Assembly (NCBI GenBank): GCA_004138175.2
Contig: RYFE02000001.1
Coordinates: 186,001-250,000, forward strand
Length of the DNA: 64,000 nt
Reading direction: 5' to 3'
Origin: Chloroflexales bacterium ZM16-3
GTDB taxonomy: Bacteria; Chloroflexota; Chloroflexia; Chloroflexales; Chloroflexaceae
Part shown: one piece after another, positions 1,844 through 34,305 of the stretch
Position numbering within the stretch: position 1 is the first letter of the stretch
How the letters are laid out: each line of letters begins with the position of its first letter
Notes under the pieces: model-generated
The model's input: only the letters and a program-made list of their open reading frames with translations
Databases searched by the model: none
Told to the model about the DNA's origin: nothing
Position numbers and translations under genes: made by a program

Positions 1844-4800
1844 TCAGCCCAGCGTCAGGATCGCGTCGCCGTCGCGCTGGGCCTCGGGCCGGTGGCTGAT
1901 CAGCAGGGTGGTGCGGCCACGCTGGAGCTCGGCGAGCGCGGCGAGTACCTCGCGCTCGGCCTCGGCATCCAGGTGGGCGGTCGGCTCGTCGAGCAGCAGG
2001 ATGGGCGCGTCCTTCAGCAGGGCGCGGGCGATGGCCAGGCGCTGACGCTCGCCGCCGCTGAGCCGCGCGCCCTGCTCGCCGAGCCATGTATCGTAGCCCT
2101 CGGGCAGCCGGGCCAGCACCTGGTCGAAGCGGGCGCGCTGACAGACTATGTCCAGATCCGCGTCGTCGGCCTCGGGGCGGGCGATCTGTAAATTCTCGCG
2201 CACCGTGCCGCTGAAGAGGTGAGTCTGCTGGGCGACCACGCCAATCATCCGGCGGATGTCCTCGGCCCGGTAGTCCCGCAGGTCGTGCCCGCCGATGCGG
2301 ATCGTGCCGGTGTAGCCATCCCAGAAGCGCAGCAGCAGGCTGGCCAGGGTGCTCTTGCCGGCCCCGCTCGGCCCCATGATCAGCAGCCGCTGGCCGTGCG
2401 CGGCCTGCGCGCTCACCCCGCGCAGCGCTGGCTGTGCCTCTCCTGGGTAGCTGAAGCTCAGGCCATCGAATGCAACGCTGGCGTCCAGCGGCGCAGGCGA
2501 ACACGACGGCTCGCTCGTCACTTGCGGCGGGGTGTCGGCGATGGCGAACAGGCGTCTGGCGGCCGCCAGGCTCAGCTCAAGGCTCTGGAGCGCGGTGGAG
2601 AGCGGGGCCACCGCCTCGAAGCTGGCCACGGCGGTGAGCGCGAGCAGCGCCAGGTAGACGCCGTCGAGCTGGCCGGCGCGCACGAGCGGCACGCCTAGCA
2701 GCAGGGCGGCCGCCGCCGCGAGCTGGCCAAGCAGGCCGACGAGTCCATTCCCTAGGCCGCGCAGGGCAGCCATGCGCTCCTGCGCCTTGGCGAGCGCCTC
2801 GCCCTGGCGGCGCACCTGCGCCAGCAGCGCGCCCTCGGCCCCCAGAGCCAGCAGGTCGGGCAGCCCCTGGATGGCCTCGACCAGGGTGGCCAGCAGCTCG
2901 GCCCGCTGGGCCACGGCCTCTGCGGCGGGCTGACGGCTTAGGTGGCGGATCAGCAGCGGCAGGGCTAGCCCCGCGATCAGCTGGAGCGACAGCACCGCCA
3001 GGGCCACCTGCGGGCTGAAGATTGTCAGCAGCCCGCAGGTCAGCCCGGCCACAAGCATGGTCACCAGGGGCGGGGCCAGCACGCGCAGGTAGAGCTGCTC
3101 CAGCGCCTCGACATCGCCCACCGCGCTGGCCAGCAGGTCGCCGCCCCGGCGGTCGATCAGCCCGGCGGGGGCCAGCGGCTCGACGGCGGCGAAGAACCAG
3201 GCGCGCACGCCTGCCAGCAGCCGGAAGGTGGCCCGGTGCGAGATATAGCGCTCGGCATAGCGCAGCAGCCCGCGGGAGATGCCGAAGAAGCGCACGCCGA
3301 CGATCGGCACGCTCAGCGCGGCGATGCCCGGCATCAGGGCCGCCCGCGCGATCAGGTAGGCCGAGGTGGCCATCAGGCCGACGCTGCTGCCGACGGTGGC
3401 CAGGCCGAGCAGCACCGCCAGGGCGAAGGCCCGCCAGTAGGGCCGCACGAGGGCCAGCAGGTGGGGGAGGGCGGGTGCCGGGGGACTGAAGTCCCCGGCT
3501 AGCGTTTGCGAAGCCCGCGCAGGCGGGCTCCCAAAGCCCGCGCAGGCGGGCTTCGCCGCATGCCAGCCCGCGCCTTCAGTCGCCGGGCGGGGGAGGGCGG
3601 GTGCATCAACCACCCGCCCCTCCTCCAGCCGCGCCACCAAATCCGCGTCGGCGAGCAGCGCGGGGCTGTGGGAGATCACCAGGGCGGTGCGCCCGCGCAG
3701 CAGATGGCGCAGGCCGGCCCGCAGCTCAGCCGCGCTCTGCGGGTCGAGGTGGGCGGTCGGCTCGTCGAGGATGACAACGGGCGCGCCCTTCAGCAGGGCG
3801 CGGGCGATGGCCAGGCGCTGGCGCTGCCCTCCCGAGAGCCGCGCGCCGCCCGCGCCGATCTGGCTCTGGTAGCCATGCGGCAGCCCGGCGATGAAGCTGT
3901 GGGCACCGGCCTCGCGGGCCGCCGACTCTAGCTCGGCGTCGCTGGCCTCGGGGCGGGCCAGGCGCAGGTTCTCGGCCACGCTGCCGGCGAACAGCGCCGG
4001 GTGCTGGCTCACCCAGGCCACCCGCCGTCGCCACGCCGCCGGGTCGATCTCAGCCAGCCGCTCGCCGCCAGCCATAATCTCCCCGGCGTCGGGCGTCAGG
4101 AAGCCCAGCAGCAGCCATGCCAGCGTGGTCTTGCCCGCGCCGTTCGGCCCCGCCATGGCCACCGTCTTCCCCGCCGGGATCACCAGATCCAGCCCGCGCA
4201 AGGCTGGTCGGCGGCCATCCTCGTAGGCGTAGCTCAGGCCGCGAATAGTGATGGTTGGGGGCTGGGGGCTGGGGGCTGGGGGCTGGGGGCTGGGGGCTGG
4301 GGGCTGGGGGCTGGGGGCTGGGGGCTGGGGGTTGGGGGTCGGTGCCCGGACACCAACCCCCAACTCCCAACCCCCAACCCCCAGAATCCTCACCAGCGCC
4401 TCCTTGCCCGCCATCGCCGCGTGGTGGCGCTGGCCGAGTAGGCGCAGGGGCAGGTAGAACTCGGGGGCCAGGATGAGCGCGGTCAGCGCGGGCACGAAGC
4501 CCATGTGGCCGCCGAGCAGGCGCAGCGCGATCTCCACGGCCAGCACCGCCGTGCCCAGGCTGGCGATCAGCTCCAGGGCCAGCGCGGAGAGGAAGGCGAC
4601 CTTCAGCACCTCCAGTGTCACATCGCCGAAGCGCACGCTGATCGCCGCCACCGCCGCCAGCTGCGCGCGGCTGCGCCCGAACAGCTTCAGCGTGGTCAGC
4701 CCCTGGAGCGCGTCGAGGAAGTGCGCGCCCATGTGGCGAAGCTCGCCCCAGCGGCGGGCCGTGTGCTCCTGGGCGTGGGTGCCGATCAGCCACATGAAGA

Positions 4801-5305
4801 GCGGGATCAGCGGCGCGCTGAGCAGCAGCACCAGCCCCGAGAGCGGGTCGAGCGGCAGCACAAAGGCCAGCACGATCAGCGGGGCCAGACCAGCCAGCGT
4901 GAGCTGCGGCAGGTACTGGCTCAGGTACTCGTCGAGCGTCTCGACGCCCTCCACCGCCGTGGTGGCCAGCTCGCCGCTGCGCTCGCCGTCGCTGTAGGCC
5001 GGGCCGAGCGCCAGGATGCGCTCGGCCAGCCGCTCGCGCAGCGCCAGCTTCACCAGGCTCGCCAGGCGCTGCCCGCTGGCCTCGCCCGCCCAGACCAGGG
5101 CGGCGCGCAGGGCGGCCAGCCCGACGAAGCCTGCCAGCTGCGGGCCGACCTCGGCCAGCCCCGCGCCTTCCAGGAAGGCCCGCCCGATCACTGAGGCTAG
5201 CAGGGCGGCCATGCCCACCGCCGCCGCCGCGCCCAGCCCGCCCGCGCCGATGGTGGCCCACAGCCAGCGCCTGGCCCGCCCGTCGGCCAATAGCTCGTTA
5301 GTCAT
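1844..5305 (-). CDS. cydDC: Fused heterodimeric ABC exporter CydDC (thiol/heme export for cytochrome bd assembly)
   Basis: This 1153-residue protein contains two complete ABC exporter halves in CydD-then-CydC order. Each half has about six membrane segments and a nucleotide-binding domain. The first has Walker A GPNGAGKTT and signature LSGGQRQ; the second has GPSGAGKST and LSGGERQ. CydDC exports cysteine/glutathione in Escherichia coli and is needed to mature cytochrome bd, which fits the cydA and cydB genes immediately upstream. Fused cydCD genes are known in actinobacteria. The unusual point is that both inter-domain linkers are built from dispersed DNA repeats: a PQPPAPS heptapeptide tract before the first nucleotide-binding domain, and a segment containing AKPACAGFGS between the halves. 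The frame remains open through both. Confidence 0.92.
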   Translation of the reverse strand: MTNELLADGRARRWLWATIGAGGLGAAAAVGMAALLASVIGRAFLEGAGLAEVGPQLAGFVGLAALRAALVWAGEASGQRLASLVKLALRERLAERILALGPAYSDGERSGELATTAVEGVETLDEYLSQYLPQLTLAGLAPLIVLAFVLPLDPLSGLVLLLSAPLIPLFMWLIGTHAQEHTARRWGELRHMGAHFLDALQGLTTLKLFGRSRAQLAAVAAISVRFGDVTLEVLKVAFLSALALELIASLGTAVLAVEIALRLLGGHMGFVPALTALILAPEFYLPLRLLGQRHHAAMAGKEALVRILGVGGWELGVGVRAPTPNPQPPAPSPQPPAPSPQPPAPSPQPPTITIRGLSYAYEDGRRPALRGLDLVIPAGKTVAMAGPNGAGKTTLAWLLLGFLTPDAGEIMAGGERLAEIDPAAWRRRVAWVSQHPALFAGSVAENLRLARPEASDAELESAAREAGAHSFIAGLPHGYQSQIGAGGARLSGGQRQRLAIARALLKGAPVVILDEPTAHLDPQSAAELRAGLRHLLRGRTALVISHSPALLADADLVARLEEGRVVDAPALPRPATEGAGWHAAKPACAGFGSPPARASQTLAGDFSPPAPALPHLLALVRPYWRAFALAVLLGLATVGSSVGLMATSAYLIARAALMPGIAALSVPIVGVRFFGISRGLLRYAERYISHRATFRLLAGVRAWFFAAVEPLAPAGLIDRRGGDLLASAVGDVEALEQLYLRVLAPPLVTMLVAGLTCGLLTIFSPQVALAVLSLQLIAGLALPLLIRHLSRQPAAEAVAQRAELLATLVEAIQGLPDLLALGAEGALLAQVRRQGEALAKAQERMAALRGLGNGLVGLLGQLAAAAALLLGVPLVRAGQLDGVYLALLALTAVASFEAVAPLSTALQSLELSLAAARRLFAIADTPPQVTSEPSCSPAPLDASVAFDGLSFSYPGEAQPALRGVSAQAAHGQRLLIMGPSGAGKSTLASLLLRFWDGYTGTIRIGGHDLRDYRAEDIRRMIGVVAQQTHLFSGTVRENLQIARPEADDADLDIVCQRARFDQVLARLPEGYDTWLGEQGARLSGGERQRLAIARALLKDAPILLLDEPTAHLDAEAEREVLAALAELQRGRTTLLISHRPEAQRDGDAILTLG
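3472..3592. repeat. Dispersed multi-stem repeat inside cydDC, copy 1
   Basis: Paired GC-rich stems (GGGGACTGAAGTCCCC, AAGCCCGCGCAGGCGGGCTT in two versions, and a tail CTTCAGTCGCCGGGCGG) lie inside the coding frame between the two halves of cydDC. The architecture and tail match the intergenic copy at 46190-46304, but the stem bases differ together. It encodes an Ala/Pro/Gly-rich linker. Confidence 0.8.
4254..4384. repeat. Heptanucleotide inverted array (GGGGGCT type) inside cydDC
   Basis: About eleven copies of GGGGGCT/GGGGGTT are followed by a short spacer and the complement CCCCCAA/CTCCCAA. Because 3 x 7 = 21, the array reads in frame as PQPPAPS heptapeptides on the minus strand, in the linker before the first nucleotide-binding domain of CydDC. 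Confidence 0.92.
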
Positions 5306-5314
5306 ACAACCCTA

Positions 5315-5361
5315 ATGTATCTGTGGTGCCAGCGGCTCTGCCGCTGGCACCACAGATACAT
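5315..5361. terminator. 21-bp perfect hairpin between cydB and cydDC
   Basis: The arms ATGTATCTGTGGTGCCAGCGG and its exact complement are separated by the 5-base loop CTCTG. No T tract follows, so it may be an RNA-processing or mRNA-stability element setting cydAB against cydDC levels rather than a true terminator. Confidence 0.6.
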
Positions 5362-5363
5362 AA

Positions 5364-6377
<1,014 letters not shown>

Positions 6378-6395
6378 AAGAAACTCCTTTGCGCT

Positions 6396-6434
6396 ACCCC
6401 GACTCCCGACTCCCAATTCCCGACTCCCGACTCA
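6396..6434. repeat. Heptanucleotide array (GACTCCC type) between cydA and cydB
   Basis: A single-arm run of five to six units (ACTCCCG, ACTCCCA, ATTCCCG) fills the cydA-cydB gap and reaches the cydA stop codon. It has the same unit as the arrays at 987-1099 and 23376-23418. Confidence 0.85.
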
Positions 6435-7826
6435 GTCACCCGTCGGCGCGGGGCGCATGGACGAGAGCGGCCTGCCGGTCGGCTGCTCGCCGGGCACAGT
6501 GCGGGCGTACTTCAGCATCAGGTAGACCGTCGCGACGATCAGCACGAGGTAGACGAGGCTGAACCCGATCAGCGAGGTCAGCACCATGCCGACGCCCACC
6601 GTCGGCGAGACGGACTGGTCGGTGCGCAGCAGGCCGAAGACGATCCAGGGCTGGCGGCCCATCTCGGTGAAGATCCAGCCGGTGGCGTTGGCCAGGTAGG
6701 GCAGCCCGATGCCGGGGATGAGCAGCCAGAGGAATCGCGGCCAGCGGGTGATCTCATGGTGCAGCACCAGGTAGAGCGCCAGCGCGGCCAGCCCGAGCAT
6801 GGCGAAGCCTGCGCCCACCATGCCCCGGAAGGTCCAGTAGGTGATGAAGACGCTCGGCGTGTAGTTGCCTGGGCCGTACTTCGCCTCGGCCGCAGCCTGT
6901 AGCTCTTTAATGCCCTGGACGGCACCACTGAAGCGATTGTACGAGAGGAAGCTGAGCAAGCCCGGCACCTTGATCGCAAACAGGTCGCGCTGCTGGGGCT
7001 GGCTGGCCACCGTGAACAGCGACATCGCCGCCGGGTCCTCCGTCTCCCAGAGCGCCTCGGCGGCGGCCATCTTCATCGGCTGCACCTTGACCATGTACTG
7101 GGATTGGGCGTGGCCGGCGAGGATCACGCCCACGGTGCCGATGATTGCGGCGATCGAGCCGATCTGGAAGGAGCGGCGGAAGATCTCGGCGCCGGCATCG
7201 CTGAGCGGCCGACGCAGGTGGTAGGCGCTGATCCCCAGCATAAAGAAGGCCGCCGTGCTGAGCGAGGCCATCATCGTGTGCGGCCACTGCACCCAGACGT
7301 GCCCGTTGGTGAGCAGGGCGGCGAAGCTGTCCATCTCGGCGCGCCCGTTGCGGATCACATAGCCAACTGGCTGGTGCATAAATGAGTTGGCCACCAGGAT
7401 CCAGAACGACGAGATCGTCGTGCCGAGCGCCATCAGCCAGATGCTGGTCAGGTGCAGCCCCTTCGAGAGCTTGTCCCAGCCGAAGAGCCAGATACCCAGG
7501 AAGGTGGACTCCAGGAAGAAGGCCATCAGCGCCTCGATCGCCAGCGGCGCGCCGAAGATGTCGCCCACGAAGCGCGAGTAGGCCGACCAGTTCATACCGA
7601 ACTGGAACTCCTGCACGATGCCGGTGGCCACCCCTATCGCAAAGTTGATCAGCAGCAGCTTGCCCCAGAACTTGGTCATGGCCTTGTAGGCTGGGTTGCC
7701 GCTGCGCACATAGATGCTCTCCATCACGGCGACGAGCAGCGAGAGGCCGATCGAGAGCGGCACGAAGAAGAAGTGGTAGACCGTGGTGATCGCGAACTGC
7801 CAGCGGGCGAGCGCGAGCGCATCCAT
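6432..7826 (-). CDS. cydA: Cytochrome bd ubiquinol oxidase subunit I
   Basis: This 464-residue protein has the CydA signature features: an N-terminal heme-ligand region AITTVYHFFFVPLSIG, the QFGMNWSAYSRFVGDIFGAP segment, and GRQPWIVFGLLRT near the heme b558 region. It is shorter than the E. coli protein, consistent with the short Q-loop class of bd oxidases. The start MDALALARWQF is preceded by CTGGAG; the open frame extends 36 residues further upstream but that part is not family-like. It leads the cydA-cydB-cydDC operon. Confidence 0.95.
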   Translation of the reverse strand: MDALALARWQFAITTVYHFFFVPLSIGLSLLVAVMESIYVRSGNPAYKAMTKFWGKLLLINFAIGVATGIVQEFQFGMNWSAYSRFVGDIFGAPLAIEALMAFFLESTFLGIWLFGWDKLSKGLHLTSIWLMALGTTISSFWILVANSFMHQPVGYVIRNGRAEMDSFAALLTNGHVWVQWPHTMMASLSTAAFFMLGISAYHLRRPLSDAGAEIFRRSFQIGSIAAIIGTVGVILAGHAQSQYMVKVQPMKMAAAEALWETEDPAAMSLFTVASQPQQRDLFAIKVPGLLSFLSYNRFSGAVQGIKELQAAAEAKYGPGNYTPSVFITYWTFRGMVGAGFAMLGLAALALYLVLHHEITRWPRFLWLLIPGIGLPYLANATGWIFTEMGRQPWIVFGLLRTDQSVSPTVGVGMVLTSLIGFSLVYLVLIVATVYLMLKYARTVPGEQPTGRPLSSMRPAPTGD

Positions 7827-8234
7827 AGCACACTCCAGGCGACGGCGCGCGCGTCGGCGCGTCGGGCATAGGCGCTTTGCGGCGAAGCCCTGCAAAAAGC
7901 AGGGATTCGGTGGAACTGTAGATCCTGCGAACAACCTTGCGTGACGCTGCCGACTCTAGCAGATGCCAGCAGTGCGCTCAAGTGCTGATCGCTTCACTGT
8001 GGCTTGCATCCGCCTAATATATTAGTCGCTTAAGATGTTGCATTGCTTTATATATCGCATCGTAATAACGTCCGTGGTAATTTTTTGTTCGAGTGGCACA
8101 CAAGAAATGATATGACACCGCCATCCCCAGCCCGCTGTCATCGAATCGTCATGCGCCAGGCGAGGAACTACGAGCCATCGTCGTTACTATAGCTAAGAAG
8201 ACAGTTCGCTCCGATATACCTACGGAGGCTCAGC
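7827..8234. other. Divergent intergenic region between cydA and the amidase gene
   Basis: This 408-base region holds the probable cyd promoter, a small CCCTGC/GCAGGG stem in the cyd leader, and an AT-rich block at about 8015-8095 (TATATTAG, TTTATATATCGC) unlike the GC-rich surroundings. A CGGAGG ribosome site precedes the amidase ATG. No small gene is evident. Confidence 0.5.
7953..7981 (-). promoter_or_regulatory. Candidate sigma-70-type promoter for the cyd operon
   Basis: On the minus strand TTGAGC and TAGAGT are separated by 17 bases, giving a leader of roughly 120 bases before cydA. This is a pattern match only. No redox-regulator site was recognised. Confidence 0.45.
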
Positions 8235-10737: not shown

Positions 10738-14619
<3,882 letters not shown>

Positions 14620-30334: not shown

Positions 30335-32896
30335 CTACAGCTGCACCCTGAGCAGCTTGAGCGGCTTGCCGAGGAATGCGCGGATGTGGCGGCGGGTGCG
30401 CTCGGGCGACTCAAACTGCGGCCAGTGTCCGGCCCGCGCCAGCACCTGAAGGTCGGTGCCGGCCAGCAGGTCGTCCACCAGGCTGGCGTCGCGCAGGGGC
30501 ACGGTGTTATCCTCCATGCCCCAGATCACCAGCGAGGGCGTGGTGACGAGCGCGAGCTTATCGCTCAGGTCGTTGTCGCGCATGGCCCAGAAGCACTCGG
30601 CGCGCACCCGGCCCTGGCCAGGGCGGCGCGCGTCGGCCCGCAGGCGCGCGTAGTCATCCGCCTTGATCACCGTGCGGTCCGCGAACGAGGCCGGCCGCAT
30701 AAGCCGGTCGGTTACGCTCAGCATGTATGGCTCTAGGAGCGCCACGACCCGGCTGGCAATCGGGAAGCGCTCCAGCATTGTGATCGGCGAGATAAAGGTG
30801 TTGATCCAGAACGACAGGTTCCCGCTGATCGTCGGGCAGATCAGCACCATGCGCTCGACCAGCGGCGTGTGGCGCAGGGCCATCGTCACGCTGATCATGC
30901 CGCCCATCGAGTGGCCCACCAGCACCACCTGCTGCCCCGGGCTGATCTCTTTGATCAGCTCGGCCAGCAGGTCGACATATGCCTCGATGGTGGCCCGCTG
31001 GCGCAGCGGCGGCGACTCGCCGTAGCCCGGCAGATCCACTGCCACACAGTGGCTGCGCTCGCTGAGCAGCGTCAGCAGGGGCGACATGGCGTACCAGCTG
31101 CTCGACCAGCCGTGGATGAGCAGGATTGTCTGGCGGTTAGGTGGCCCCTGCTCGCGAACGTGGATCTCCTGGCCGCCAATGGTGTAGACCTTCTTCTGAA
31201 GCTCGCTGCCCTTGTCGCGGCGCTGCTGAGCGGCGCTTGGCGCAGAATCGGCGGACTCGGCGGTCGCCGCCGTCCCACGGATCTGGCGCGCGCGCTCCTG
31301 GAGCTGGCCGAAGTAGCTCGACTGGGTGATCTGCTCGACCTCGCGCTGCTTCTTCACCAGGTCGATCTCGATCCGCAGCTCGCTGATCTCCTGGCGCAGC
31401 TTCTGCTCGCGAGTGTAGGCCGCCAGGGCGGCGGCGGCCAGCGTGCCGAGCGACTGGAGCATCTGCGCGGAGAACTCGTCGAAGGCGATCACCTTACTGT
31501 CCTCGTCCTGGGCATTAAGCAGCTGGAGCACCCCGGTCACTCGGCCGAAGCCATCCTTGAGCGGGATGTTGATCATCGAGGTGGAGCGGTAGCCGGTGCG
31601 CGTGTCGAAGTCGTGCGTGCCCGAGAAGTCATAGTCCTCAGTATCGTAGGCGTCGATAATATTGATCGTTGTGCCGGTGAGCGCTGCGTTGGCCACCACA
31701 TAGTTATGTTGGGGCGCGCCGGTCTGCTCATCGTAGAGGCGCAGGGGCGGGAAGGGGATATCCTTGCCGCTGGCGCCGCCCATGGCGATGTCCAGCGAGC
31801 GGGTGCGCACGATCATAAAGCGCAGCCGGTCATCCTCGGTGCGCAGGTAGAGCGTGGCCCCGTCGGCGTTGCAGAGCTGCTGGGCCTCGGTGACGATCCG
31901 CTCAAGCAGCTGGTTAAAGTCCTTCTCGACAGAGAGGGCCACGCCGATCGGGATGACGATATGCAACAGGTCGTCGGCGCGGCGCTTCTCGTGTTCGATC
32001 CGCTTGAGGTACTGTGCCTCCATATCGCGCACGTGGTGCTTGAAGAGGCATGCCCCGATGCGCGCCTTGAGCAGCACTGAGTCGTAGGGCTTTGGCAGGT
32101 AGTCGTCGGCACCGAGATCGATCGCCTGGACGATGCTGGTCATATCGTCGAGGGCCGAGAGCACGATCACCGGCACCCGGCGCAGATCAGGGTCGGACTG
32201 GATCTCGCGCAGTACGGCGTAGCCGTCCATCTCCGGCATCATAATATCGAGCAGCACGAGGTCGAAGGGCGTGGCCCGCATCGCATTCAGGGCGGGCCGC
32301 CCGTCGGCGGCCTGGGTGACACGGTAGCCCAGGCGCTCCAGCCGACGCGAGAGCATATCGCGGTTCATGGCGTTATCATCGACCAGCAGCAGGTGCCCGC
32401 TGAGCTGCTCTAACTCGGTGGCGTCGCTATTTGCGGGGGCGTCAGTGGGAGGGGGTGCGTCGGAGGGGAGAAGCGTGCCAGATGAGAGCTGATCGAGCTG
32501 GCCGGCTGCCACGGCGATCTTGCGCAGGTCGGCCGCAAACTGCGGGCGCTGCTCGCCCTCGGCGACGGCGATCAGCTCTGCGCAGACGGTGTTGATCTCG
32601 TTCAGGTAGGGGGCGATCCGGCTATGCAAGGTGAGCAGGTCGGAATCGCGCACGGCGACGCCACTCCCAGACAGGATCTCGGTGATGGCGGCCAGGATGT
32701 TTCGCCCCGCAGCCACGACGTGCTGGAGTGCGTCGTAGCGGGCGGGCAACTCAATGTCAGACGCCTCCTCCAGCAGCATCTCGCTAAAGCCGATGATATG
32801 GTTCACCGGCGTGCGCAGCTCGTGGCGGATGGTCTGCATCGCCATGCCCTGATGCGCTGCGCCGGGGTGATTTTGTGCGTTCACCTGCCGCTCCAT
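30335..32896 (-). CDS. HisKA-REC-GAF-alpha/beta hydrolase fusion
   Basis: This 853-residue protein has a rare domain order. A HisKA-like H-box (TIRHELRTPVNHIIGFSEM, about residue 25) is not followed by an ATPase domain. A receiver spans about 165-290, with LLVDDNAMNRD, phospho-acceptor in LVLLDIMMPEMDG and KPYDS. A GAF domain spans about 310-490 (DFNQLLERIVTEAQQLCNADGATLYL), followed by a coiled coil. The C-terminal 270 residues are an alpha/beta hydrolase with HGWSSSWYAM, nucleophile GHSMGG, acid WGMEDNTVP and histidine RAGHWPQF. It looks like a response regulator whose output is an esterase or lipase activity. No signal peptide is seen, so it is probably cytosolic. The substrate is unknown. 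Confidence 0.85.
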   Translation of the reverse strand: MERQVNAQNHPGAAHQGMAMQTIRHELRTPVNHIIGFSEMLLEEASDIELPARYDALQHVVAAGRNILAAITEILSGSGVAVRDSDLLTLHSRIAPYLNEINTVCAELIAVAEGEQRPQFAADLRKIAVAAGQLDQLSSGTLLPSDAPPPTDAPANSDATELEQLSGHLLLVDDNAMNRDMLSRRLERLGYRVTQAADGRPALNAMRATPFDLVLLDIMMPEMDGYAVLREIQSDPDLRRVPVIVLSALDDMTSIVQAIDLGADDYLPKPYDSVLLKARIGACLFKHHVRDMEAQYLKRIEHEKRRADDLLHIVIPIGVALSVEKDFNQLLERIVTEAQQLCNADGATLYLRTEDDRLRFMIVRTRSLDIAMGGASGKDIPFPPLRLYDEQTGAPQHNYVVANAALTGTTINIIDAYDTEDYDFSGTHDFDTRTGYRSTSMINIPLKDGFGRVTGVLQLLNAQDEDSKVIAFDEFSAQMLQSLGTLAAAALAAYTREQKLRQEISELRIEIDLVKKQREVEQITQSSYFGQLQERARQIRGTAATAESADSAPSAAQQRRDKGSELQKKVYTIGGQEIHVREQGPPNRQTILLIHGWSSSWYAMSPLLTLLSERSHCVAVDLPGYGESPPLRQRATIEAYVDLLAELIKEISPGQQVVLVGHSMGGMISVTMALRHTPLVERMVLICPTISGNLSFWINTFISPITMLERFPIASRVVALLEPYMLSVTDRLMRPASFADRTVIKADDYARLRADARRPGQGRVRAECFWAMRDNDLSDKLALVTTPSLVIWGMEDNTVPLRDASLVDDLLAGTDLQVLARAGHWPQFESPERTRRHIRAFLGKPLKLLRVQL

Positions 32897-32979
32897 CGCC
32901 AGCCCCCCCGTATGTAGGCTTCTCTATAGTGCCTAATAAACGGGCGGGGGGATTTCTTTCTCGATATCACTGCCGGTTT

Positions 32980-33618
32980 TTACCCCCGCCGCGCTACCTT
33001 CAATGGAGAGGGGGCTGGGGTGAGGGCGTGGGTCGGCAGCAGCAGCAGAGCCACGCCGAGCAGCGTGGTGAGCGTGGCGGCCACCCAGAAGACATATGCC
33101 TCGGGCACGGCGAGGGTCAGCGGCGGGAAGAAGCCGAGCCCGTAGTCCACAAAGACCGACAGGGCGAACCAGCCGATCACGGCGAGGCGCAGCGGGGTGG
33201 CCAGCGGGCCGATCCGGGTGGCCAGCAGCACGCCCTCGGCCGTCAGGCCCATGTGCGAGACGAAGAGCATCAGCTCAAGCGGAAACTCGGGGTCGGCGAA
33301 GCCCACCACGCTCCAGTGCTTCAGCCAGAACATGAGCGTCCAGATCCCGTACTTGATGCAGCTGAAGGCGGCGAACGCCGTGAACCAGCTCCTGTCCCGT
33401 CCGTAGCGCAGCAGCAGGAAGGCCACTGTGCCCCACAGCGCCGCCTCGGGGCAGTCGGGGATGAAGGGCCACGCCCACAGCGGCGAGGCCAGCAGCTGCG
33501 GCCCATACCAGACCACCCCGCCCCAGATCACGCCCACGGCGTTGGTGATCATACATGCCCAGAAGATCAGCGGGTTCTTCGTGATCAGCCCGTACACCCA
33601 ATCGATCAGACGCAGCAT
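32980..33618 (-). CDS. DUF1405-family integral membrane protein
   Basis: This 212-residue protein has about six membrane segments and family-like segments WVYGLITKNPLIFWACMITNAVG, FIPDCPEAALWGTVAFLLL and FSCIKYGIWTLMFW. DUF1405 proteins are uncharacterised; Bacillus YpjA is a member. The start at MLRLIDW is chosen at the first family-like residue, while the upstream frame is heptamer repeat. The C-terminal THALTPAPSPLKVARRG looks like translated dispersed repeat rather than conserved sequence. Confidence 0.78.
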   Translation of the reverse strand: MLRLIDWVYGLITKNPLIFWACMITNAVGVIWGGVVWYGPQLLASPLWAWPFIPDCPEAALWGTVAFLLLRYGRDRSWFTAFAAFSCIKYGIWTLMFWLKHWSVVGFADPEFPLELMLFVSHMGLTAEGVLLATRIGPLATPLRLAVIGWFALSVFVDYGLGFFPPLTLAVPEAYVFWVAATLTTLLGVALLLLPTHALTPAPSPLKVARRG

Positions 33619-33630
33619 CCATGTCTCCAG

Positions 33631-33682
33631 TGTTAAGTGTTGAGTGTTGAGTGGACCCACTCAACACTCAACACTAAAAACT
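33631..33682. repeat. Heptanucleotide inverted array (CTCAACA type)
   Basis: AGTGTTG/AGTGTTA units pair with ACTCAAC units around GTGGACCCAC. It has the same unit as 22736-22782 and lies between the DUF1405 and acyltransferase genes. Confidence 0.9.
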
Positions 33683-34215
33683 CAGCGCCGCAGGCGCTGT
33701 ATCGGCACCCCGCCCACAAATGCCCCTGTCGGCACATCGCGGTTCACCAGGCTCATGGCCGAGACGGTGGCCCCATCGCCGATGACCACGCCGGGGAGGA
33801 TGGTACAGTTGGCGCCAATCGTCACCCCCTGGCCGATGACCACCGGGCCGCGTCGCCACTCGCCTCTGGTGAACTCATGGCAGAGGATGGTTGTGTTATA
33901 GCCGACCACGCAGTCCTCGCCGATGGTCACATCTTGCGGGAAGAAGATATCGAGCATGACCATCAGGGCCACGCTGGCGTGGTGGCCGACCTGCGCGCCG
34001 ATGGCGCGGTAGATCGCGTTCTTCAGCGGGATGAATGGTGTGTAGCGGGCCACCTGGATGAGCAGCGCGTTGCGGATCACCTGTAGGTAGCCGCCGGTGA
34101 GCTGCGGCCAGTACCACAGGGCGTTGTGCGGCCCCGGCGATGGCGCGATGTGCAGGCGGGCCTTGCGCGCCGCGCTGGTGCCCAGCCCGTCGGTGCGCGT
34201 CTCAGTCAGCTCCAT
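33682..34215 (-). CDS. Left-handed beta-helix acyltransferase
   Basis: This 177-residue protein carries hexapeptide-repeat rungs (VTIGEDCVVGYNTTILCHEF, VVIGQGVTIGANCTILPGVVIGDGATVSAMSLV) typical of the LbH transferases that move acetyl or other acyl groups from CoA to sugars or amino acids. The N-terminal 60 residues include PGPHNALWYWPQ. The catalytic histidine is probably that in LCHEF. The start MELTET is preceded by AGGAAGAG. The acceptor is not known. It sits upstream of the DUF1405 gene on the minus strand. Confidence 0.82.
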   Translation of the reverse strand: MELTETRTDGLGTSAARKARLHIAPSPGPHNALWYWPQLTGGYLQVIRNALLIQVARYTPFIPLKNAIYRAIGAQVGHHASVALMVMLDIFFPQDVTIGEDCVVGYNTTILCHEFTRGEWRRGPVVIGQGVTIGANCTILPGVVIGDGATVSAMSLVNRDVPTGAFVGGVPIQRLRR

Positions 34216-34305
34216 GGCTCTTCCTAGTAGGGCGCGTCTCTGCGCATAGTGTAGCATATTCCGCCCGTGGCATGGCTGTGGTATGCTTTGTTCTACGACC
34301 GACGA

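Follow-up and report, generated by a model that had tools for sequence, protein, structure and literature searches.

A Chloroflexales response regulator with a predicted alpha/beta-hydrolase output

A gene of Chloroflexales bacterium ZM16-3 codes for a protein in which a HisKA-like helical domain, a receiver, a GAF domain, a coiled coil and an alpha/beta-hydrolase are joined in one chain (Table 1; positions refer to the window, i.e., the whole stretch of 64,000 nucleotides that was analyzed). The protein is read here, with moderate confidence, as a cytoplasmic response regulator whose effector would be a serine alpha/beta-hydrolase gated by both phosphorylation and a GAF ligand; the fusion would probably be an enzyme switched directly by the cell and not through gene control. 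The majority of response regulators have as their target either DNA or the turnover of cyclic nucleotides and cyclic dinucleotides. The textbook receiver-controlled hydrolase is CheB, a single chain in which a receiver controls a Ser-His-Asp methylesterase and phosphorylation acts on the enzyme, not on DNA. If the proposed reading is true, a second, unrelated serine hydrolase would be placed under receiver and GAF control, which would constitute a new output class and provide a simple assay for the passage of signals across a GAF domain and a coiled coil. The control of a serine hydrolase by a receiver (CheB) is already known, as are GAF-controlled enzymes; what appears to be new is the use of this hydrolase family as output and the H-box–receiver–GAF order, neither of which was found described in the open-access papers searched. 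Nor was a description of a receiver-GAF-hydrolase chain found in these papers.

Table 1. Features of the fusion gene and its upstream region (window positions; aa, residues of the fusion protein).
Feature	Position	Strand	Remarks
Whole fusion gene	30335..32896	(-)	853 aa: HisKA-like helix domain, receiver, GAF, coiled coil, alpha/beta-hydrolase
HisKA-like N-terminal domain, aa 18-142	32471..32845	(-)	Pfam HisKA borderline; modeled as single-chain four-helix bundle
His25 of H-box	32822..32824	(-)	Kept in 12/12 aligned orthologues with the domain in frame
Receiver domain, aa 168-285	32042..32395	(-)	Pfam Response_reg aa 170-280, E 5e-28
Asp217, predicted phospho-acceptor	32246..32248	(-)	Invariant, 14/14
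GAF domain, aa 326-491	31424..31921	(-)	Pfam GAF, E 4e-11
Coiled coil, aa 496-545	31262..31411	(-)	Conserved tail EITxSxYFxxLQxxAxxLR; modeled as long helix
Variable linker, aa 546-570	31187..31261	(-)	Lowest identity of the parts
Alpha/beta-hydrolase domain with helical cap, aa 571-850	30347..31186	(-)	Pfam Abhydrolase
Ser663, nucleophile (GHSMGG)	30908..30910	(-)	Invariant, 14/14
Asp796, triad acid (GMEDNTVP)	30509..30511	(-)	Invariant, 14/14
His824, triad base (AGHWP)	30425..30427	(-)	Invariant, 14/14
CGTTY motif	32938..32942	(-)	46 nt upstream of the ATG
DUF1405 membrane protein, homologue of B. subtilis LhaT/YpjA	32980..33660	(-)	PF07187, 122.9 bits
Hexapeptide-repeat acetyltransferase, best family YvoF-like	33682..34257	(-)	NF058585, 190 bits, below the cut-off of 300

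The open reading frame is exact, running in a single frame from an ATG start through all 853 residues. A search of family genomes has recovered orthologues in 14 of 41 genomes, which belong to seven genera and show 54-87% identity. Twelve of them, from as many independent assemblies, include H-box domain and hydrolase in one uninterrupted frame and measure 844-896 residues. The domain list and order proposed in the first-pass annotation are borne out both by Pfam matches and by this conservation. The predicted phospho-acceptor Asp217 is invariant among the 14 orthologues, and so is the full Ser-Asp-His triad, which had also been recognized from the start. One genome, G021, carries the H-box region directly upstream of the rest of the protein but in a different frame, with a single visible frameshift (L156, L259; G021:C690), to be attributed either to a frameshift or to an error of the draft assembly. 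This copy is what would speak for the gene being a frame error or a chimera that fuses a response regulator gene to a hydrolase gene, a danger acknowledged in the first-pass annotation; set against the continuous frame and the low dN/dS of the 12 independent assemblies, the probability of such an artifact is practically nil, and the orthologues rule it out. No plasmid record covering 80% of the fusion protein was found that would indicate spread by mobile elements. The architecture, which had been put forward as belonging to no described system, has so far been found in one bacterial family among the matches listed, and no description of its function was found in the papers searched; it has not been met as a widespread arrangement of known function. 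A divergent version of the fusion may exist elsewhere; the scan of genome contigs comprised at least 80 loci.

The selection acting on the fusion has been estimated from six orthologue pairs, and dN/dS is well below 1 in every domain. The values range between 0.05 and 0.12 for the hydrolase, 0.05 and 0.34 for the receiver, 0.08 and 0.25 for the GAF domain, and 0.11 and 0.33 for the H-box domain; in most comparisons no other part is conserved as strongly as the hydrolase. The linker, the least identical of all parts, has the highest dN/dS in most of the six pairs. A different kind of evidence comes from the orthologue L019 (L019:1492-3714), in which the H-box domain is missing and the acidic pair of the receiver is replaced by Ala-Ala, while the triad is kept. 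This protein is likely, from its residues, to be a pseudo-receiver hydrolase. Because the triad persists there after the loss of both the H-box domain and the acidic pair, the phospho-input seems to be dispensable within the family and the enzyme to be the function that is retained. It was also considered that the H-box domain might be missing in two orthologues; this was rejected, since it is absent in L019 only, the G021 copy lying upstream in another frame.

The N-terminal domain contains the H-box sequence MQTIRHELRTPVNH, with His25 at the phospho-acceptor position, followed by a variable residue (E, D, G, or S). Its Pfam HisKA match (aa 20-73) scores 26.8 bits vs. a cut-off of 26.9. When modeled alone, residues 10-146 form a single-chain four-helix bundle (pLDDT 88.6, pTM 0.82), for which a fold search returned generic four-helix bundles only and Pfam no Hpt match. 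The H-box hairpin is similar to those of histidine kinases from the same genomes, and therefore the domain was probably acquired from a kinase whose ATPase was lost; its role is probably in phosphotransfer or as a dimer module. Pfam finds no HATPase domain anywhere in the 853 residues, in agreement with what had been noticed from the letters alone, and for this reason the protein is not filed as a kinase. The receiver retains all the key residues, i.e., Asp173, Asp174, Asp217, Ser247, and Lys269; Lys269 is kept in 13 of the 14 orthologues, and the pair Asp173/Asp174 in nearly all. No cognate kinase adjoins the fusion gene. The same window encodes, at 10738-14619, a hybrid histidine kinase (MASE11-PAS-PAS-HisKA-HATPase-receiver-HPt), which is a candidate phosphodonor.

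Regarding the GAF domain, its nearest solved relatives are those of CyaB2 (E 4e-11), PDE5A (E 3e-8), and PDE2A (E 2e-5), and by sequence kinship it is of the cyclic-nucleotide-GAF type (PDE/CyaB). The NKFDE motif is absent from it, Asn461 being followed by Ala462 and no F-x3-D-E being present. Its core is strongly conserved across the orthologues and under purifying selection; in the full-length model, which is good for the N-terminal domain, the receiver and the hydrolase core, the GAF domain is poor (mean pLDDT 64.7). Class III cyclase matches occur in at least 10 reading frames of the host genome, and cyclic-nucleotide signaling is therefore plausible in this bacterium. In other members of the phylum, HAMP sensors and GAF sensors end in the same tail as this coiled coil. 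In other Chloroflexota the GAF-coil module exists without the hydrolase, in HAMP-GAF-coil proteins whose genes lie a few genes away from that of a class III cyclase, and some receiver-GAF proteins (e.g., L185) bear a C-terminal extension that by eye looks like a PP2C-type phosphatase. This recurrence of the GAF-coil part with other outputs indicates that the sensor half is a common module, on which the hydrolase is a new output.

The C-terminal domain matches Pfam Abhydrolase_6 and Abhydrolase_1 at aa 590-834 (E 2e-30), with 107.5 and 99.4 bits vs. a cut-off of 26. Its nearest solved relatives by sequence are the HsaD-type C-C hydrolases, and the nearest folds are those of the phospholipase A PlaF, the C-C hydrolases, Cif, and ABHD6. 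CheB_methylest gave no match in the fusion protein up to E 0.01, and every match of the domain to the curated NCBIfam families is far below cut-off, so that it is a member of none of them. The neighboring genes, together with the nearest solved relatives, weakly favor a lipid or carboxyl ester as substrate; nothing favors lactonase activity, which the first-pass annotation had listed beside esterase and lipase.

The same hydrolase is found under other sensors. The paralogue L002 of the host genome (G000:C40:319120-319956) consists of a hydrolase about 60% identical to that of the fusion, with the same triad, followed by a C-terminal cyclic-nucleotide-binding (CNB) domain. This form is present in most of the Chloroflexales genomes searched, and no described function was found for it. 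A further hydrolase-CNB fusion was observed at L158:8115-9518. In a phylum-wide sample, the hydrolase family occurs in 33 of 400 genomes, all but one from the same order, and mostly as the CNB fusion. Another example is given by genomes of the Herpetosiphon type (f2), in which a solo hydrolase of 284 residues is also encoded, 24 bp downstream of a HAMP sensor; this sensor itself lacks a catalytic output, and its last helix ends in the tail VDEIVDSEFFRNLQEKAREARQ, matching the coil of the fusion protein. In the tree the CNB-fused hydrolases form one clade (100/98), outside which the receiver-GAF fusions fall together with the solo copies. The receiver-GAF fusion, the CNB fusion and the HAMP-linked solo copy thus represent one hydrolase under three kinds of sensor, and the CNB paralogue allows two ways of controlling the same enzyme to be compared as they occur in nature. 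The Herpetosiphon-type cluster (L164:3042-9237; L165, L166) includes, in addition to the HAMP-coil sensor and the solo hydrolase, a small conserved protein, two MinD-like ATPases, a TLC-type transporter, and a GNAT protein; in L230-L232, a class III cyclase and a sensor of the HAMP-GAF-coil type likewise have a MinD-like gene and a small protein of similar kind in their vicinity. The MinD-like ATPase was rejected as a part of the system, given that the host copy, 70% identical, is not near such a hydrolase or sensor.

These sequences are naturally read as those of a signal-controlled hydrolase, because of the strong conservation of the hydrolase, the domain order, the missing ATPase, the conserved triad and the existence of a paralogue on a cyclic-nucleotide sensor. 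According to the proposed mechanism, a separate histidine kinase or phosphorelay would phosphorylate Asp217, or His25 and then Asp217, and a ligand would bind to the GAF domain. In a dimer, both signals would be transmitted along the helices and the coil as far as the cap or the active site of the hydrolase, whose rate would change on their arrival. More tentatively, the substrate might be an ester, either short or carried by a lipid, that has to do with membrane or lipoprotein acylation, as suggested by the YvoF-like and LhaT-like genes that precede the fusion and by the resemblance of the hydrolase to PlaF, ABHD6, and the C-C hydrolases. A wider proposal, rather unlikely as a whole, is that the Chloroflexales would possess a dedicated signaling hydrolase, placed under receiver/GAF, cyclic-nucleotide, and HAMP-coil sensors and acting on an ester of a membrane lipid, by which two-component and cyclic-nucleotide signals would control membrane lipid or lipoprotein acylation directly and without transcription.

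Parallels with known systems are partial. The fusion resembles CheB in having a receiver over a serine hydrolase within one chain, although its hydrolase belongs to another family, an H-box and a GAF domain are added, and receiver and enzyme are far apart and connected via a coiled coil. As in the GAF-controlled CyaB1/CyaB2 cyclases and the mammalian PDE2/PDE5, a GAF domain of the same type is linked by a helix to a C-terminal enzyme; on the other hand, the enzyme is a different one and NKFDE is not conserved. HsaD/BphD, PlaF, and ABHD6, which among solved hydrolases come closest in sequence or in fold, are about 20-25% identical and none of them has regulatory domains. The paralogue L002 is of the same subfamily, but its regulator is the C-terminal CNB domain, it falls in the separate clade, and the CNB form is near universal in the order. 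Finally, the RsbQ-RsbP modules also combine an alpha/beta-hydrolase with a coiled coil and a sensory domain, whereas in them the hydrolase is a protein of its own that acts upstream and the sensory domain is PAS, in place of a GAF domain with the hydrolase at the effector end (PMC3183031).

This last likeness suggests an alternative in which the hydrolase would be an input, as in RsbQ/RsbP or KAI2/D14: it would make or capture the GAF ligand, and the signal would exit via the receiver or the H-box. RsbQ-type hydrolases do form sensing modules with PAS domains via a coiled coil, from adjacent genes and with varied outputs (PMC3183031), and the solo hydrolase of Herpetosiphon type likewise follows a sensor without catalytic output. 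In the fusion, however, the hydrolase stands past the coil at the C-terminal effector end; the paralogue is attached to a CNB regulator of the classical ligand-binding kind, for which no hydrolase is required; RsbQ is not among the best 60 solved relatives of the domain; and once the receiver pocket is lost, as in L019, the hydrolase is the sole obvious output left. An input role is therefore judged unlikely. Quite improbable is a housekeeping hydrolase tethered to an adaptor, with the sensor half serving localization or oligomerization and no change in activity. The variable residue that follows His25, a glutamate in part of the orthologues, the dead receiver pocket of one orthologue and the existence of solo hydrolases in the same branch (L038 and the Herpetosiphon type) would agree with it, but it would not account for the constancy of Asp217 and of the other receiver residues, for the purifying selection on the GAF core, or for the repeated and independent links to sensors. 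A signal-controlled output enzyme thus remains the preferred reading.

The gene neighborhood bears on the substrate. In 10 of 13 testable genomes the DUF1405 gene is directly upstream of the fusion gene on the same strand (G037 could not be tested because of a contig end, and G017, G021, and G029 lack the adjacency), and among 30 loci that were examined, 28 have DUF1405 and the acetyltransferase as a pair, whether the fusion is present or not. The pair is near universal in the family and occurs without the fusion in many relatives. In B. subtilis, LhaT and YvoF carry out lipoprotein acetylation via acetylated heptaprenylglycerol (PMC12345273), and the adjacency of the fusion to relatives of both hints at a lipid ester substrate. 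PcrB (PF01884), the enzyme for the carrier lipid in Bacillus, is missing from the host genome, in which control families were detected; it is possible that the pair without PcrB constitutes a route of lipoprotein acetylation with another carrier lipid. From this context a more specific alternative can be drawn, in which the fusion would be a signal-controlled deacetylase of a lipid acetyl carrier: the YvoF-like enzyme would load acetyl onto a membrane lipid, the LhaT-like protein would use it outside the cell, and the fusion would remove the acetyl group inside in response to signals, setting the degree of lipoprotein N-acetylation. The frequent adjacency, the proof of the pathway in B. subtilis (PMC12345273) and the folds of PlaF and ABHD6 are consistent with this proposal. 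Nevertheless, it is of doubtful probability, given the absence of PcrB, the scores of both neighbors below the NCBIfam cut-offs for the Bacillus enzymes (62.5 bits vs. 255 for the DUF1405 protein with NF052528), the many relatives with the pair alone, the three fusion genomes without adjacency, and an upstream motif belonging to the fusion gene itself. In any case, the link raises the question of whether signaling regulates extracellular acetylation.

This motif, CGTTY, is located 31-52 nt upstream of the start in 11 of 13 orthologues, and within 35-60 nt in 10 of the 13, compared with 3.5% of random 30-nt stretches. It also precedes one fusion orthologue that lacks the upstream pair. Being conserved even there, it could be a promoter or regulator site of the fusion gene's own; together with the absence of PcrB and the occurrence of the pair without the fusion in many relatives, it suggests that the operon link may be loose. 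An RNA hairpin before the start codon was also considered and was rejected, since it is not conserved between species. Elsewhere in the window (1844-7934), the genes for cytochrome bd subunits I and II lie beside one for a single chain of 1153 residues with two ABC transporter halves, probably a fused CydD-CydC.
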